Source: Cupriavidus oxalaticus (GTDB lineage: Bacteria > Pseudomonadota > Gammaproteobacteria > Burkholderiales > Burkholderiaceae). Taken from it: a stretch of DNA of 64,000 nucleotides. Positions 57,580 through 63,835 of this stretch are shown here, piece by piece. The DNA lies in NCBI RefSeq assembly GCF_016894385.1, contig NZ_CP069811.1, forward strand, positions 96,001-160,000. Reading direction: 5' to 3'. Numbering within the stretch: the stretch's first letter is position 1; every line of letters begins with the position of its first letter. The position numbers and the translations under genes were made by a program. The notes under the pieces are model-generated. The model made no database searches and had not been told where the DNA came from. It worked only from the letters and a program-made list of their open reading frames with translations.

Positions 57580-58581
57580 ATGACAGCCAGAGCATCACAA
57601 GATTCCGCCGCGCTGCCGCTCGACAAGGAGACGCTGCTGACGGCGTACCGGAAGATGCGCACCATCCGCGATTTCGAGGAGCGCCTGCACGTGGACTTCG
57701 CGCGTGGCGACATCCCGGGCTTCGTCCACCTGTACGCGGGCGAGGAGGCCGCGGGCGTCGGCATCCTGCATCACCTGCACGATGGCGACCGCATCGCCAG
57801 CACGCACCGCGGCCATGGCCACTGCATTGCCAAGGGCGTGGATCCGGTGGCGATGATGATGGAGATCTATGGCAAGAAGGGCGGCTCGTGCAACGGCAAG
57901 GGCGGCTCGATGCATATCGCGGACCTGTCCAAGGGCATGATGGGGGCCAATGGCATCCTGGGCGCCGGCGCGCCGCTGATCTGCGGCGCCGCGCTGGCCG
58001 CCAAGTTTCGCGGCAAGGGCGAGGTCGGCATTACCTTCTGCGGCGACGGCGCTTCCAACCAGGGCACCTTCCTGGAAAGCCTGAACCTGGCCGCGGTGTG
58101 GAACCTGCCGGTGATCTTCGTGATCGAGAACAACGGCTATGCCGAGTCGACCTCGCGCGACTATGGCACGGCGGTGGACAGCTACGTCGACCGCGCCGCC
58201 GGCTTCGGCATTCCGGGCGTGACTGTCGATGGCACCGACTTCTTCGCCGTGCACGAGGCCGCCGGCGAAGTCATCCGCCGTGCGCGCGAAGGCGGCGGCC
58301 CGTCGCTGCTCGAATGCAAGATGGTCCGCTTCTATGGCCACTTCGAGGGCGATGCGCAGACCTACCGCGCCGCCGGCGAGCTCGACGATATTCGCGCCAA
58401 CAAGGACTGCCTGAAGCTGTTCGCCCGCACCGTGACGCAGGCCGGCGTAATCGCGCGCGAGGAGCTCGACACCATCGACCGTGAAGTCGCCGCGCTGATC
58501 GAGCACGCCGTGCAGCAAGCCAAGGCCGCGCCGCTGCCCGGCCCGGAAGACCTGCTCACCGACGTCTACGTCAGCTACTGA
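57580..58581 (+). CDS. acoA: Acetoin dehydrogenase E1 alpha subunit
   Basis: A 333-residue thiamine-diphosphate subunit of the acetoin cleaving complex, which splits acetoin to acetaldehyde and acetyl-CoA with the E1 beta and E2 subunits. The ThDP/Mg motif starts at GDGASNQG (155-162) and closes at ENNGYAES (N184, N185). STHRGHGHCIAKGVD and GGSMHIADLSKGMMGANGI are family landmarks. The site GAAGGAGACAAAC precedes the ATG; the same ribosome-site wording is repeated before acoB. Confidence 0.97.
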   Translation: MTARASQDSAALPLDKETLLTAYRKMRTIRDFEERLHVDFARGDIPGFVHLYAGEEAAGVGILHHLHDGDRIASTHRGHGHCIAKGVDPVAMMMEIYGKKGGSCNGKGGSMHIADLSKGMMGANGILGAGAPLICGAALAAKFRGKGEVGITFCGDGASNQGTFLESLNLAAVWNLPVIFVIENNGYAESTSRDYGTAVDSYVDRAAGFGIPGVTVDGTDFFAVHEAAGEVIRRAREGGGPSLLECKMVRFYGHFEGDAQTYRAAGELDDIRANKDCLKLFARTVTQAGVIAREELDTIDREVAALIEHAVQQAKAAPLPGPEDLLTDVYVSY

Positions 58582-58628
58582 TCGCCTCTCGCCAACCAGA
58601 CGGCTAACCGAACTATCAGGAGACAAAC

Positions 58629-59645
58629 ATGGCTCGCAAACTGAGCATCAAGCTGGCGATCAACGAGGCGATCGACCAGGAAATGACCCGCGACCCCAGC
58701 GTCATCATGCTGGGCGAAGACATCGTCGGCGGCGCCGGCGCGGACGGCGAGAAGGACGCCTGGGGCGGCGTGCTGGGCGTGACCAAGGGTCTGTACGCCA
58801 AGCATGGCGACCGTCTGCTGGATACGCCGTTGTCCGAGTCGGCCTACGTTGGCGCCGCCATCGGCGCCGCGGCCTGCGGCATGCGCCCGATCGCCGAGCT
58901 GATGTTCATCGACTTCATGGGCGTGTGCTTCGACCAGATCTTCAACCAGGCGGCCAAGTTCCGCTACATGTTCGGCGGCAAGGCCGAAACCCCGGTGGTG
59001 ATCCGCGCCATGGTCGGCGCCGGCTTCCGCGCCGCCGCGCAGCACAGCCAGATGCTGACGCCGCTGTTTACGCATATCCCCGGCCTCAAGGTGGTGTGCC
59101 CATCGACGCCGTACGACACCAAGGGCCTGCTGATCCAGGCGATCCGCGACAACGACCCGGTGATCTTCTGCGAGCACAAGAACCTGTACGGGCTCGAAGG
59201 CGAGGTGCCGGAGGGCGCGTACGCGATCCCGTTTGGCGAGGCCAATATCGTGCGCGACGGCAAGGACGTGTCGATCGTCAGCTACGGGCTGATGGTGCAC
59301 CGCGCGCTGGAAGCGGCGACGACGCTGGCGAAGGAAGGCATCGAGGCGGAAGTGATCGACCTGCGCACGCTGTCGCCGCTGGACATGGACACGGTGCTGG
59401 AGTCGGTCGAGACCACCGGCCGCCTGGTGGTGGTGGATGAAGCCAGCCCGCGCTGCAATATCGCCACCGATATCTCTGCGCAGGTCGCGCAGCAGGCCTT
59501 CGGCGCGCTCAGGGCCGGCATCGAGATGGTGTGCCCGCCGCATACGCCGGTGCCGTTCTCACCCACGCTGGAAGACCTGTACATCCCCAGCGCCGCGCAG
59601 ATCGCTGCCGCCGCGCGCAAGACGGTCAAGGGAGGCAAGCAGTGA
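58629..59645 (+). CDS. acoB: Acetoin dehydrogenase E1 beta subunit
   Basis: A 338-residue partner of AcoA in the E1 heterotetramer. It contains the transketolase-type pyrimidine domain (GEDIVGGAGADGEKDAWGG, DTPLSESAYVGAAIGAA, PIAELMFIDFMGVCFDQIFN) and the C-terminal domain (SYGLMVHRALEAA, LRTLSPLDMDTVLESV, TGRLVVVDEASPR). AGGAGACAAAC precedes the ATG. Its TGA overlaps the acoC ATG by one base (TGATG). Confidence 0.97.
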   Translation: MARKLSIKLAINEAIDQEMTRDPSVIMLGEDIVGGAGADGEKDAWGGVLGVTKGLYAKHGDRLLDTPLSESAYVGAAIGAAACGMRPIAELMFIDFMGVCFDQIFNQAAKFRYMFGGKAETPVVIRAMVGAGFRAAAQHSQMLTPLFTHIPGLKVVCPSTPYDTKGLLIQAIRDNDPVIFCEHKNLYGLEGEVPEGAYAIPFGEANIVRDGKDVSIVSYGLMVHRALEAATTLAKEGIEAEVIDLRTLSPLDMDTVLESVETTGRLVVVDEASPRCNIATDISAQVAQQAFGALRAGIEMVCPPHTPVPFSPTLEDLYIPSAAQIAAAARKTVKGGKQ

Positions 59646-60760
59646 TGGCAAGCGCAGCAATTACCCCGATCGTGATGCCCAAATGGGGCCTGTCGATGAA
59701 GGAAGGCACGGTCAATGCCTGGCTCGTCGACGAGGGCACCGAAATTAACGTGGGCATGCCGATCCTCGATGTGGAAACCGACAAGATTGCCAATGCGGTG
59801 GAGGCGCCGGACGCCGGCACGCTGCGCCGCAAGGTGGCGCAGGCCGGCGACGTGCTGCCGGTCAAGGCGCTGCTTGGCGTGCTGGCTCCGGCGGAGGTGA
59901 GCGATGCGGATATCGACGCGTATGTATCGGCTTATGAAGCGCCCGCGGAAGACGGTGACGAGGAAGACGCCGCCGCCGCGTACCAGTTCGCCGACGTGGA
60001 CGGCGTCCGCGTCCGCTACGCCCGCAAGGGCAGCGGCGCCGAGACCGTGCTCTTCCTCCACGGCTTTGGCGGTGACCTGGACAACTGGCTGTTCAACCTC
60101 GATCCCCTTGCCGACGCGTACACGGTCGTGGCACTGGACCTGCCCGGCCATGGACAGTCGTCGCCGCGGCTCGCGGGCACGACGCTGGCGCAGATGGCCG
60201 GCTTTGTAGCGCGCTTCATGGACGAGACCGGCATCGAAGCCGCGCACCTGGTCGGCCATTCGATGGGCGGCGGCGTGGCGGCGCAACTCGCCGTGGACGC
60301 GCCGCAGCGGGTGCTGTCGATGGCGCTGGTGTCGCCGGTGGGCTTCGGCGAAGCCATCAACAGCGGCTATACCGAGGGCTTTGTCAATGCGCAGTCGCGG
60401 CGCGAGCTGAAGCCGGTGATCGAACTGCTGTTCGCGGATGCCGGGCTGGTCAGCCGGCAGATGCTCGACGACCTGCTGCGCTACAAGCGGCTGGATGGCG
60501 TGACCGAAGCGCTGACCTCCCTGGGCCAGGGCCTGTTTGCCGGAGGCCGGCAGAAGGAGCAGCCCGGCCAGCGGCTGGCCGGCAGCGGCAAGCGCGTGCT
60601 GATGGTGTGGGGCGGCCAGGACCGCATCATCCCGGCTGAGCATGCCGAGGCGGCGCCGCCCGACGCTACCGTCAAGGTCTTTGCCGACGCCGGCCACATG
60701 AGCCAGATGGAGAAGGCCAACGACTTCAACGCGCTGCTCAGGCAGCACCTCGGCGGCTGA
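59645..60760 (+). CDS. acoC: Acetoin dehydrogenase E2, lipoyl domain plus alpha/beta hydrolase
   Basis: A 371-residue dihydrolipoamide acetyltransferase of the short aco type. Residues 1-80 are one lipoyl domain with the lipoylated Lys47 in VETDKIAN. After an acidic linker (EDGDEEDAAAA), an alpha/beta-hydrolase fold (about 110-370) replaces the usual catalytic core, with FLHGFGGD, nucleophile elbow GHSMGG (S206), late Asp in GGQDRIIP and His in DAGHMSQME. This domain structure is characteristic of AcoC in C. necator. No E3 gene follows, so a housekeeping lipoamide dehydrogenase must serve. Confidence 0.96.
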   Translation: MASAAITPIVMPKWGLSMKEGTVNAWLVDEGTEINVGMPILDVETDKIANAVEAPDAGTLRRKVAQAGDVLPVKALLGVLAPAEVSDADIDAYVSAYEAPAEDGDEEDAAAAYQFADVDGVRVRYARKGSGAETVLFLHGFGGDLDNWLFNLDPLADAYTVVALDLPGHGQSSPRLAGTTLAQMAGFVARFMDETGIEAAHLVGHSMGGGVAAQLAVDAPQRVLSMALVSPVGFGEAINSGYTEGFVNAQSRRELKPVIELLFADAGLVSRQMLDDLLRYKRLDGVTEALTSLGQGLFAGGRQKEQPGQRLAGSGKRVLMVWGGQDRIIPAEHAEAAPPDATVKVFADAGHMSQMEKANDFNALLRQHLGG

Positions 60761-60835
60761 GGCCGCGGCGCGGGCGGCGGCGTGCGCTGCCGCCCGCCTT
60801 TGTCTTCCATCCACCGAATCACGACAACGGTTCCT

Positions 60836-61177
60836 ATGAGCACAGAACTGAAGACCCGCCTCGCCCAGATCAACAAGCAGTTCGCCGCGCTCGCGCAGGC
60901 CCAGCCCGCGGCCATGAGCGCATTCCAGGGCCTGATGAAGGCCGCCACGCAGGAAGGCAGCCTGCCGGCCGCCGTCAAGGAGCTGGTCGCGGTCGCGCTG
61001 GCCGTGCAGAAGGGCTGCGACGACTGCGTGCTGTTCCACACGGCGCAGGCGCTGCGCCACGGCGCCACGCGCGCGCAACTGGCCGAAGTGCTGGCGCTCA
61101 ATATCGAGATGGGCGGCGGCCCGGGCGCGATGTATGCGTCGAAAGCGCTGGCCTACTTCGATGCGCTCAACGATTAG
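60836..61177 (+). CDS. AhpD/carboxymuconolactone decarboxylase-like protein
   Basis: A 113-residue all-helical protein of the CMD/AhpD family with an intact redox motif C61-DD-C64 and H68 (KGCDDCVLFHTAQAL). This fits a peroxidase-type thiol protein that can be reduced through lipoylated E2 proteins, as AhpD is in mycobacteria. It lies 75 bases behind acoC and 53 before the lipoate ligase, so reduction by lipoyl-AcoC is a reasonable idea, not shown. The ATG at 60836 is the family start; 18 in-frame codons upstream are rejected. Confidence 0.9.
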   Translation: MSTELKTRLAQINKQFAALAQAQPAAMSAFQGLMKAATQEGSLPAAVKELVAVALAVQKGCDDCVLFHTAQALRHGATRAQLAEVLALNIEMGGGPGAMYASKALAYFDALND

Positions 61178-61230
61178 CCTTGCTAGACTCGGCCTATCGT
61201 TACCCGACCGGCCAAGACCGCTGCCGCGCC

Positions 61231-62004
61231 ATGCCTTTTGAGTTCGTCGAGCCCGCGCCTGCCGGCCAGCCGCATGCGGATCCACTGCAGGACGAACTGG
61301 CCTTGCTCGAGCTCGCCGCGCAGGGCCGGCAGGTCGCCCAGCTGTGGGAGGCGCCGCTGTCGCTGGTGGTGCCGCGTACCTACCAGCGGCATGCCGGCTT
61401 CGAGGCCGCGCGCAGCGAGTTCGCGCGGCAGGGCTGCCCGGTGTTCCTGCGCATGTCGGGCGGGGGACTGGTGCCGCAAGGCCCGGGCATCCTCAACCTG
61501 AGCCTGGCCTATAGCGTTGGCCAGCCGCCGGGTGCGCTCAGCGATGCGGTCTACCTGCACCTGTGCGAGGTGATCGGCAAGGGGCTGCTGGCGCTCGGCG
61601 TGCCCACGCATTGGCAGGCGGTGGCCGGCTCGTTCTGCGACGGCCGCTTCAACCTGGCATGGGGGCCGCCGGAGGCGGCGCGCAAGATCGCCGGCACTGC
61701 GCAGTACTGGCGGCGGGCACCCGCGGCAATGCAGTCCGGCGACGGCCAGCGGCATCTGGTGCTGGCCCATGCGGTGCTGCTGGTAAGCGCGGATCCGGTT
61801 CAGATCAACGCACGCGCGAATGCGTTCGAGGCGGCGCTCGGCAGCGGCCGCCGCTATGATCCCGGCAAGGTGGTCAGCGTGCGCGAGGCGCTGCTGGCGC
61901 AGGGGCGTGCCGCCGCGGATGGTGCGGGGCTGATGGCGCAGGTATTGGAGACACTGCGGAAGACATTGCGGCATAGCGCCGCGCAGACGCCGCTGCCTGC
62001 CTAG
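61231..62004 (+). CDS. Lipoate-protein ligase A family protein
   Basis: A 257-residue member of the LplA/LipM (BPL_LplA_LipB) fold. FLRMSGGGLVPQGPGILNLS matches the RRxSGGGAVYHDxGNLN loop, and ARKIAGTAQYW supplies the conserved lipoyl-AMP Lys (K152). The C-terminal accessory domain of E. coli LplA is missing or short. At the end of the aco operon its likely target is Lys47 of AcoC. The ATG at 61231 is preferred over a TTG at 61180. The true cofactor (lipoate or octanoate) and donor are unknown. Confidence 0.85.
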   Translation: MPFEFVEPAPAGQPHADPLQDELALLELAAQGRQVAQLWEAPLSLVVPRTYQRHAGFEAARSEFARQGCPVFLRMSGGGLVPQGPGILNLSLAYSVGQPPGALSDAVYLHLCEVIGKGLLALGVPTHWQAVAGSFCDGRFNLAWGPPEAARKIAGTAQYWRRAPAAMQSGDGQRHLVLAHAVLLVSADPVQINARANAFEAALGSGRRYDPGKVVSVREALLAQGRAAADGAGLMAQVLETLRKTLRHSAAQTPLPA

Positions 62005-62211: not shown

Positions 62212-63093
62212 CTACGCGATAAGGTAGGTGCCCTGCGGATCCGGTTCGGCCGCCGCCTTGACCTTGCGGACGTTGGCTTCCAGTTCGGCATGGGCGGCGT
62301 CCAGCCATCCCACGCGATGGCGCACGGGATCCTTCGGCGACAGGTCGCTGACAGACAGTTCACGCAGGAAATAGCGCACCATGCTGCCCGCTCGCGCGGG
62401 TACCGGCATCATGCCCAGCAACTGGTGGGGCGCGATCAGCCGCCGGCTGACAGCATGCCGGAGCCCGGCCCAGGCGGTGCGGCCCAGCGCGATATAGAAA
62501 GCGTCGGTGCGCATCTGCCGGATGGTGTCGAGAAACTGGTTTTCGAAGACTTCGCGAAGCATGGGCGCCGCCATCAAGTCTTCGAAGGGGCCGTCGAAGA
62601 CGAGCCCGCGCCGGGTGGTGGCATGCGGCAACAAGGCCAGTGGCTGCAGTTGCTCGAAGCCTTCGTTCCACAGCGCCGCGGCATGTGGCAGGCCGACCAG
62701 CTCGGGTACGCGGAAGTGGTCGAGCATGCGGATCAGGTTCGGGCGAACCAGCTTGCCGCCCAGTTCCACGCGCCGCTTGTTCTCGCGCTGGATCACGCGG
62801 CCCGCCGTGTGGCTGCGCATCAGTTCCTCGGTCACGGACGCTGCCAGCCGCACATGGGCATGGCCCGGGGTGGTGCTGACGAGCACCAGCCGCGCCTGTG
62901 TGTTCAGGTACTCGCACGGTACGTAGTGCATGGCGTACATGCCATCTTGCGCGACCAGGATTGGCCTGGCAATGACGCCGACGGCGCCGGCAAGCCGTAC
63001 CTGAGAGCAATACGCTTCAATGAAGTTGGTCAAGGACTCCCCCCGCTCGCGACGCTTCTGGTGCGTTTTTTTCTTGTTCTGCGTTTCGATCAT
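62212..63093 (-). CDS. Conserved-looking hypothetical protein
   Basis: A 293-residue soluble protein with a very basic start (MIETQNKKKTHQKRRERG). The strand ARLVLVSTTPGHAHVRLA after VPCEYLNTQ loosely recalls the phosphate/uracil-pocket strand of uracil-DNA-glycosylase-like folds, but the match is too weak to name a function. The rest is helical with many His, Arg and Trp residues. The ATG at 63093 is chosen because the 102 upstream in-frame codons cross a terminator and promoter. It has its own terminator and stands alone. Confidence 0.65.
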   Translation of the reverse strand: MIETQNKKKTHQKRRERGESLTNFIEAYCSQVRLAGAVGVIARPILVAQDGMYAMHYVPCEYLNTQARLVLVSTTPGHAHVRLAASVTEELMRSHTAGRVIQRENKRRVELGGKLVRPNLIRMLDHFRVPELVGLPHAAALWNEGFEQLQPLALLPHATTRRGLVFDGPFEDLMAAPMLREVFENQFLDTIRQMRTDAFYIALGRTAWAGLRHAVSRRLIAPHQLLGMMPVPARAGSMVRYFLRELSVSDLSPKDPVRHRVGWLDAAHAELEANVRKVKAAAEPDPQGTYLIA

Positions 63094-63327
63094 GGTAAGC
63101 CGGCGCTGAATCACAGACAAAGCGCGCGGTGCCGGATTAGCCTGAATACGACGCAACCTTCGTGGGACAGCCAACACATTGGTGGCTGCATCCCCCCGAT
63201 CGGGTGGGGCCTGGCGGCCGTCAGCCGCACGGTAGCCTTGGCTGGCGTCAGGACGATGACATGCCGTCAGGACGATGACATGCCAATGCGAGGCGAGCGC
63301 GCCAGGGATTGAGGCGCGGGCGGGAAG

Positions 63328-63355
63328 AAAAAACCGGACACGAAGCGTGTCCGGT
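63328..63355 (-). terminator. Intrinsic terminator of the small RNA and/or osmC
   Basis: CCGGACACG-aag-CGTGTCCGG, a perfect 9-bp stem (10 bp with the outer A:T pair), followed on the minus strand by TTTTTT. It lies about 90 bases after the osmC stop and about 40 after the proposed small-RNA start. Confidence 0.92.
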
Positions 63356-63395
63356 AACCCATTTGCTGACTCAGGCCGTGTCAGAACCCGAGAGT
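63328..63395 (-). ncRNA. Candidate Fur-repressed small RNA
   Basis: A promoter with a Fur box (63399-63428) would start transcription near 63395. An intrinsic terminator ends it at about 63328, giving an RNA near 68 nt. Inside is a small hairpin CTGAC-N9-GTCAG and a single-stranded stretch AGCAAATGGGTTA before the terminator stem. No reading frame of note is present. It has the design of RyhB/PrrF/NrrF-type iron-sparing RNAs. The alternative is that it is only an attenuated leader of the 62.2-kb gene. Confidence 0.55.
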
Positions 63396-63398
63396 ACA

Positions 63399-63428
63399 AA
63401 TAATAACGATTATCATTCTCGATAGCAA
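63399..63428 (-). promoter_or_regulatory. Sigma-70 promoter with Fur box
   Basis: Minus strand: TTGCTA (63428-63423), exactly 17 bases, TATTAT (63405-63400). The spacer and -10 are filled by GAGAATGATAATCGTTATT (63420-63402, minus), which matches 16 of 19 positions of the Fur consensus GATAATGATAATCATTATC. Binding would block RNA polymerase directly. Confidence 0.8.
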
Positions 63429-63445
63429 CAGGAATCCCTCGATTC

Positions 63446-63835
63446 TCAGCCGATCGATGTCTCGATAGCGATCTGCCCCGACAGCGTCTTGTGTACCGGG
63501 CAACGGTTGGCGACCCGCAGGAGATCGTCCAGGATCTGGGGCGTCAGTTCACCACTGACCTTGACCTCGCGCTTCAGCGTATAGGTGCCGTTGGCTTCTT
63601 CATGGGCCACCGACACGTCGATGCTGGCGATGGCGTAGCCTTTGCGCTTGGCATAGAGTTGCAGTGTCAGGGTCGTGCAGGCGGCCAGCGCGGAGTCGAG
63701 CAAGTCGTGAGGGCTGGGGTAGCTGGTATCGCCGCCCGCGGAGGCATCCAGGTCGGCCTGCCATTTGGCGGTGCCGTTGTTCAGGTGGCAGGTGGTGTTG
63801 CCCTGGCTCGGCTGCCAGGTCGCTTGGATAGTCAT
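63446..63835 (-). CDS. OsmC-family peroxiredoxin-like protein
   Basis: A 129-residue OsmC/Ohr-fold protein. The two redox cysteines are C53 (LAACTTLTLQLYAKRKG) and C112 (NRCPVHKTL), the usual pair that reduces organic hydroperoxides. SPHDLLDSALAAC is the family signature. CAGGGACG precedes the ATG. Members often use lipoylated proteins as reductant. It lies upstream of the Fur-box promoter and shares the terminator beyond it. Confidence 0.93.
   Translation of the reverse strand: MTIQATWQPSQGNTTCHLNNGTAKWQADLDASAGGDTSYPSPHDLLDSALAACTTLTLQLYAKRKGYAIASIDVSVAHEEANGTYTLKREVKVSGELTPQILDDLLRVANRCPVHKTLSGQIAIETSIG

Follow-up and report, generated by a model that had tools for sequence, protein, structure and literature searches.

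A compact transcription unit on the minus strand of the window (the whole 64,000-nt stretch of Cupriavidus oxalaticus DNA that was analysed, part of a 2.8-Mb contig in a 6.69-Mb two-contig genome) is very probably a gene in its own right, encoding a trans-acting small RNA of about 65 nt that is repressed by Fur and restricted to Cupriavidus in the samples searched. The unit has a promoter, a Fur box and two hairpins, all conserved jointly, and a transcription start has been published for the homologous base in C. metallidurans CH34. Fur-controlled small RNAs are a known kind; this one founds a sequence family of its own, and Rfam gave no match in the window at the gathering score. Cupriavidus includes model metal-resistant and biotechnology strains, and the unit is a concrete, testable candidate for an iron-stress regulator.

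In the proposed mechanism, Fur-Fe2+ would occupy the promoter box when iron is available and block RNA polymerase. Iron shortage, or an upset of iron homeostasis by copper, would open the promoter, so that the small RNA is apparently induced by iron shortage. The RNA would end in a hairpin and U tract of its own, a type of 3′ end to which Hfq binds, and a near-invariant segment, GUCAGCAAAUGGGUU, would be exposed between the two hairpins to pair with target mRNAs. We infer Fur repression, Hfq dependence and pairing via this segment; beyond the sequence features and the published start, the mechanism is modelled by analogy on RNAs of the RyhB type.

Promoter, start site and RNA body

The features of the unit and its two neighbours are as follows.

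63423..63428, minus strand: −35 element TTGCTA (promoter comparison; TTG in 24 of 25 aligned copies)
63402..63420, minus strand: Fur box GAGAATGATAATCGTTATT, 16/19, within the promoter spacer and overlapping the −10 element
63400..63405, minus strand: −10 element TATTAT (promoter comparison)
63392, minus strand: transcription start (+1), placed at the base homologous to the orphan start CHR2 147,562 published for CH34
63328..63392, minus strand: predicted 65-nt small RNA (homology, fold, alignment and covariance search)
63370..63392, minus strand: 5′ hairpin CUCGGGUU...GGCCUGAG (predicted fold; pair counts)
63356..63370, minus strand: unpaired conserved segment GUCAGCAAAUGGGUU, presumed seed (unchanged in 24 of 25 copies; identity 0.989)
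63333..63355, minus strand: terminator hairpin ACCGGACACGCUUCGUGUCCGGU, 10 pairs (fold, pair counts)
63328..63333, minus strand: terminator U tract, six U (sequence)
63446..63835, minus strand: upstream neighbour, OsmC-family protein (PF02566, 58.2 bits), outside the unit
62212..63093, minus strand: downstream neighbour, 293-aa open frame, outside the unit

As originally predicted from the letters of the DNA, there is a TTGCTA-N17-TATTAT promoter whose spacer contains a Fur box of 16/19. The two promoter elements (63428-63423 and 63405-63400) are 17 nt apart and give 9/12 promoter matches. The Fur box overlaps the −10 element of this dedicated promoter and is the sole site with at most 3 mismatches in the 64-kb window, against 0.00 expected (none in 100 shuffles). 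In a script scan it was likewise the only site of at least 14/19 in the window, besides its own reverse-strand reading. The GC content is 37% across 63380-63430 and 68.6% for the whole window.

The start site was placed by homology with CH34, whose copy of the unit lies at NC_007974.2:147499-147588 on the minus strand; that record holds one annotated feature in total and none at the unit. A tagRNA-seq study of CH34 reported an orphan start at CHR2 147,562 that was differentially expressed under copper and validated by RACE (PMC7563307). On the minus strand of NC_007974.2, base 147,562 is a C, the first base of hairpin 1; it lies seven bases past the −10 box and coincides with the predicted +1 of the unit. 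The position was compared on NC_007974.2, and the methods of the study name NC_007974.1. On the CH34 plus strand, reading by eye found no −10-like sequence at the right distance from 147,562. With +1 thereby at 63392, the predicted RNA is about 65 nt long (63392-63328), which refines the size of about 68 nt first proposed for this unit.

The CH34 orphan transcript shares its locus and starting base with the unit, but unlike the predicted unit it is reported as copper-responsive and as about 450 bp long by 3′ RACE (PMC7563307). The available text of that study gives neither the strand nor an iron response for this start; the term "fur box" is absent from its main text, and no conservation or iron link is given there. 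The product of about 450 bp is at odds with a 65-nt RNA and suggests read-through in CH34. Copper disturbs Fe-S clusters, and this effect is a plausible bridge from a copper response to iron. The unit offers an explanation for the copper-responsive orphan transcript of CH34.

The perfect 9- to 10-bp stem with TTTTTT, expected about 40 bases past the start, has 10 pairs and six U and begins about 37 nt after the start. The RNA from 63394 to 63328 folds at −26.2 kcal/mol (z = −2.76), with 3 of 200 shuffles equally good, into two hairpins with an unpaired stretch in between. GUCAGCAAAUGGGUU is unpaired in this predicted fold of the window RNA and partly paired in the single-sequence folds of some relatives. 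The terminator hairpin and U tract are kept in all 25 aligned copies; the published CH34 3′ RACE length disagrees with a short RNA.

The claim that the unit contains no reading frame stood for a closed frame only: an AUG at 63362-63360 opens a frame with no stop ahead of the terminator, and the frame of the downstream gene is open across the unit (62212-63399). When open frames were counted in a protein-anchored manner across loci, 5 of the 23 loci with the gene (of 25, the window's own included) had the downstream frame open through the unpaired segment. Because it is open in just these five, the open frame is not a conserved feature of the unit. A conserved peptide starting at the segment AUG was rejected, since indels vary the spacing downstream, the window has no stop ahead of the terminator, and the AUG is missing from one aligned copy.

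Conservation and distribution in Cupriavidus

The genome set included 35 Cupriavidus genomes besides that of the window, and a DNA search matched the unit in 24 of them (E ≤ 1.4e-14). A 25th Cupriavidus genome gave a 19-base match to the Fur box only, and the matches outside the genus were three fragments of 22 to 34 bases. Among the 25 copies, mean pairwise identity peaked at 0.989 in the segment GUCAGCAAAUGGGUU; hairpin 1 had 0.856, the terminator 0.803 and the promoter/Fur box 0.716, and the flanks had 0.355 upstream and 0.333 downstream. The conserved block stands out against its surroundings. In the alignment the Fur box is palindromic and the segment is identical in 24 of the 25 copies. 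Across 39 distinct copies, some of them from named genomes outside the 60-genome set described below, the Fur box scored 12 to 17 of 19, with none under 12.

Support for the fold came from its stability: 92.4% of cells were paired in the 25 copies versus 10 to 46% when the structure was slid along the alignment. An A-U pair of the terminator is G-C in 3 of the 25 copies. Covariation over the whole structure of the 25 copies was not above that of shuffles, 101 of 500 of which reached the score; two pairs were changed on both sides, a number reached by 347 of 500 shuffles. The pair counts are lowered by at least three rows of alignment A1 (L009, L019 and L022) that have the 5′ arm of hairpin 1 in the wrong place.

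The covariance search of related genomes proposed with the original prediction was run with model R1. At E ≤ 0.01 the model matched 43 of the 60 Cupriavidus genomes; 40 of these scored at least 65 bits, each with a single match. We count 40 carriers and not 43 because two of the discounted matches are remnants (G005, 27.4 bits; G011, 47.2 bits) and one is a deletion copy (G605, 52.7 bits). The deletion copy, in C. necator A5-1 (G605; L063, L199 and L224), keeps the Fur-box promoter and terminator with most of the segment lost, and is counted against the small-RNA gene. In the remnants, which follow osmC (L225 and L226), the terminator is recognisable, the segment is altered, and the stretch that was read shows no Fur box; apparently promoter and segment were lost together. 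Elsewhere in G011 a Fur-box-like site, AAATGATAATCGTTATTATT, occurs without the unit after it (C53:10648; L029 around 1501).

Beyond the genus, an even sample of the family yielded matches in 38 of 299 genomes, of which 28 were Cupriavidus (including G005) and 10 were weak matches in other genera, and a sample of the order yielded 7 of 300, two in Cupriavidus and five weak; both searches used stricter filters, by which weak matches may be lost. The 8 of 15 weak non-Cupriavidus matches that were inspected (3 of 10 from the family, 5 of 5 from the order) had no segment GUCAGCAAAUGGGUU and no upstream Fur-like site above 11/19. Judged from these searches, the unit is kept by most Cupriavidus species examined and is limited to the genus in the samples searched.

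Neighbouring genes and competing explanations

In the window the stop codon of osmC lies 17 bases from the −35 element, and the same order is common. The 15 closest relatives of the OsmC protein are 71 to 95% identical and all from Cupriavidus, and the next is 54% identical. A relative of osmC (E ≤ 1e-20) was found in 43 of the 60 Cupriavidus genomes, and six genomes have osmC without a model match (G006, G016, G271, G316, G606 and G608). On the other side, the next gene begins 235 bases past the terminator as had been noted (first ATG at 63093, unit end at 63328); its true start may be further downstream because similarity to CH34 begins at residue 18. The 293-aa frame matched no Pfam or NCBIfam family, and it adjoins osmC in relatives both with and without the unit. 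Further along, at 57580-62004 on the plus strand, the window holds a gene run that, from its translations, resembles an acetoin- or 2-oxoacid-dehydrogenase cluster, with CMD-family and lipoyl-ligase-like proteins.

The neighbours change around the unit. Five named relatives without it (C. pinatubonensis, Cupriavidus sp. UYMMa02A, C. laharis, C. yeoncheonensis and C. numazuensis) keep osmC and the downstream gene, the latter at 73 to 75% identity, and their osmC stop runs directly into the DNA that follows the unit in the window. Conversely, five copies of the unit (L019, L022, L158, L159 and L160) lie in loci with neither osmC nor the downstream gene, four of them after a gene whose translation reads as a transporter-like product. 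The G238 copy retains the downstream gene, with osmC about 1.5 kb away. Promoter, segment and terminator therefore stay together as a module.

These arrangements bear on whether the site is instead an iron-regulated leader promoter of the 293-aa gene, with the hairpin as a leaky attenuator. In its favour, 23 of 25 loci, and G238 as well, have the gene after the unit; the frame of the gene is open across the unit in the window; and the CH34 RACE product, at the length reported, would extend into the gene. Yet the five named relatives without the module keep both the gene and its upstream DNA, five copies of the module have no such gene in their locus, a minority of loci have the frame open through the segment, and the hairpin and U tract are retained in every aligned copy. 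We consider a leader promoter unlikely. The covariance search, synteny and published start favour an independent Fur-box small-RNA gene over it, in agreement with the original prediction that the site is not a protein-gene promoter.

The short distance from the osmC stop to the −35 element and the common gene order would also fit a hairpin that merely terminates osmC, any small RNA then being a processed osmC 3′ end. This is very unlikely, given that the promoter and Fur box are conserved along with the hairpin, that copies are found away from osmC, and that a published start lies at the predicted +1. Just as unlikely is that the box serves another Fur-family regulator and the RNA responds to a metal other than iron. 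Fur paralogues can share a box shape, and the CH34 start is reported to change with copper; against this, the core AATGATAATCGTTATCATT resembles a Fur box, a box of similar type precedes hemP in the same genomes, and copper disturbs Fe-S clusters.

Known RNAs and candidate targets

RyhB, PrrF1/2 and NrrF are short noncoding RNAs with a Fur box over the promoter, a start of their own and a terminator of their own, and the layout predicted for the unit is the same. It differs from them in being confined to Cupriavidus in the samples searched and in lacking an Rfam match to them: at the unit, no RyhB, PrrF or NrrF appeared up to E 5. In sequence, the Fur-box promoter and predicted terminator agree with the architecture of these RNAs, to which the unit was originally likened. 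To BrrF, the Burkholderia low-iron RNA that was named along with them, any resemblance would be one of function: BrrF is a processed hemP 3′ end that lacks a Fur box of its own, and in this genome hemP is found on the other contig.

BrrF (ncS63) of B. cenocepacia is described as a 126-nt RNA that is processed out of the hemP mRNA at its 3′ end and has no Fur box of its own; the same study reports that Cupriavidus has a partial homologue after hemP (PMC7377471). BrrF is a Burkholderiaceae low-iron RNA under Fur control and a proposed iron-sparing regulator, like the proposed role of the unit; it derives from hemP, whereas the unit has its own Fur-box promoter after osmC. In the genome of the window the unit follows osmC on contig C1 and hemP is on contig C2, with a 14/19 Fur box of its own; after hemP comes a separate conserved block (L052 1706-1752 and equivalents elsewhere). 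This block is probably the Cupriavidus piece of BrrF, an identity drawn from its position. The best local match between the unit and the block (the block, not the BrrF sequence, was compared) was 5 bases, equalled by 84% of shuffles. Among the hemP loci compared, from 21 of the 35 genomes with hemP, 10 had the block and all 10 of these had the unit, four had the unit without the block, and seven had neither. This distribution suggests that some Cupriavidus carry two unrelated Fur-linked RNAs, the unit and the hemP-linked one, and others the unit alone or neither. The unit was rejected as BrrF, since BrrF is processed from hemP and a separate hemP-linked element is present in the same genome.

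The best weak Rfam match at the site was to ncS54 (RF02871), at 20.3 bits versus a gathering score of 43. The two share a two-hairpin layout and a weak full-length alignment; the unpaired segment is not shared. In B. cenocepacia, ncS54 is reported to show no significant response to low iron (PMC5688073). That the unit belongs to a described family (BrrF, ncS54, RyhB, PrrF or NrrF) is thus extremely improbable, despite the full-length ncS54 alignment and the precedent of BrrF as a low-iron RNA in Burkholderia: ncS54 falls short in score and in low-iron behaviour, BrrF sits at hemP and the hemP-linked block here is unlike the unit, and the others gave no match. Among the literature matches listed, which leave subscription papers largely outside, no Fur-box small RNA with its own promoter was recognised in Cupriavidus beyond the CH34 orphan start.

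For the small RNA encoded by the unit, we infer RyhB-like iron sparing through Fe-protein mRNAs. The prediction of segment targets among such mRNAs, suggested at the outset, did not bear this out: in the genomes scanned, no consistent conserved antisense site was found in sodB, sdhC or two aconitase-family genes. Duplex scans of these genes gave energies like the GC-rich background (no shuffled control), and a contiguous-pairing scan found a 10-nt match before sdhC in three of eight genomes that was not conserved in the alignment. In the genome of the window, the wobble complement of the 15-mer occurred at 3 sites, one of them the unit's own antisense, versus 3 for the backwards control, and so showed no excess.

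AACCCATTTGCTG, with at most one mismatch, occurred at 30 places in six genomes (6 being the unit itself) versus 6 in the backwards control, an excess that we do not read as targets because the control is unmatched for longer words and the matches fall on both strands. Among the 24 places outside the unit, three genome pairs share their context. Two of these contexts are antisense to coding genes, as read from translations, and the third falls near the beginning of the coding sequence of a response-regulator gene in two of the six genomes, the close relatives G000 and G018. This gene (L162 and L182, around 1500), with its near-complete complement of the segment, is a possible candidate target. 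Upstream of an ATG in five genomes, CCCATTTGC was found at 76 places versus 17 in the backwards control, a comparison limited to matched strings, and 30 were taken as loci.

The segment also shares a motif with sdhC in the same sense. GCAAATGGG occurs in the RNA segment and in the sdhC pre-start region of five of eight aligned Cupriavidus genomes, and the corresponding sdhC motif is GCTAATGGG in the genome of the window and two others. There is a slight chance that the RNA is a decoy that mimics the sdhC ribosome-binding region and titrates an RNA or protein that binds sdhC. Such a decoy would fit the failure to find antisense targets and, if real, its sponging would couple iron shortage to respiration. 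Just before the start codon, the sdhC leaders (L279-L286) read GCAAATGGGG in five of the eight genomes (G034, G009, G026, G030 and G022) and GCTAATGGGG in three (G000, G014 and G007).
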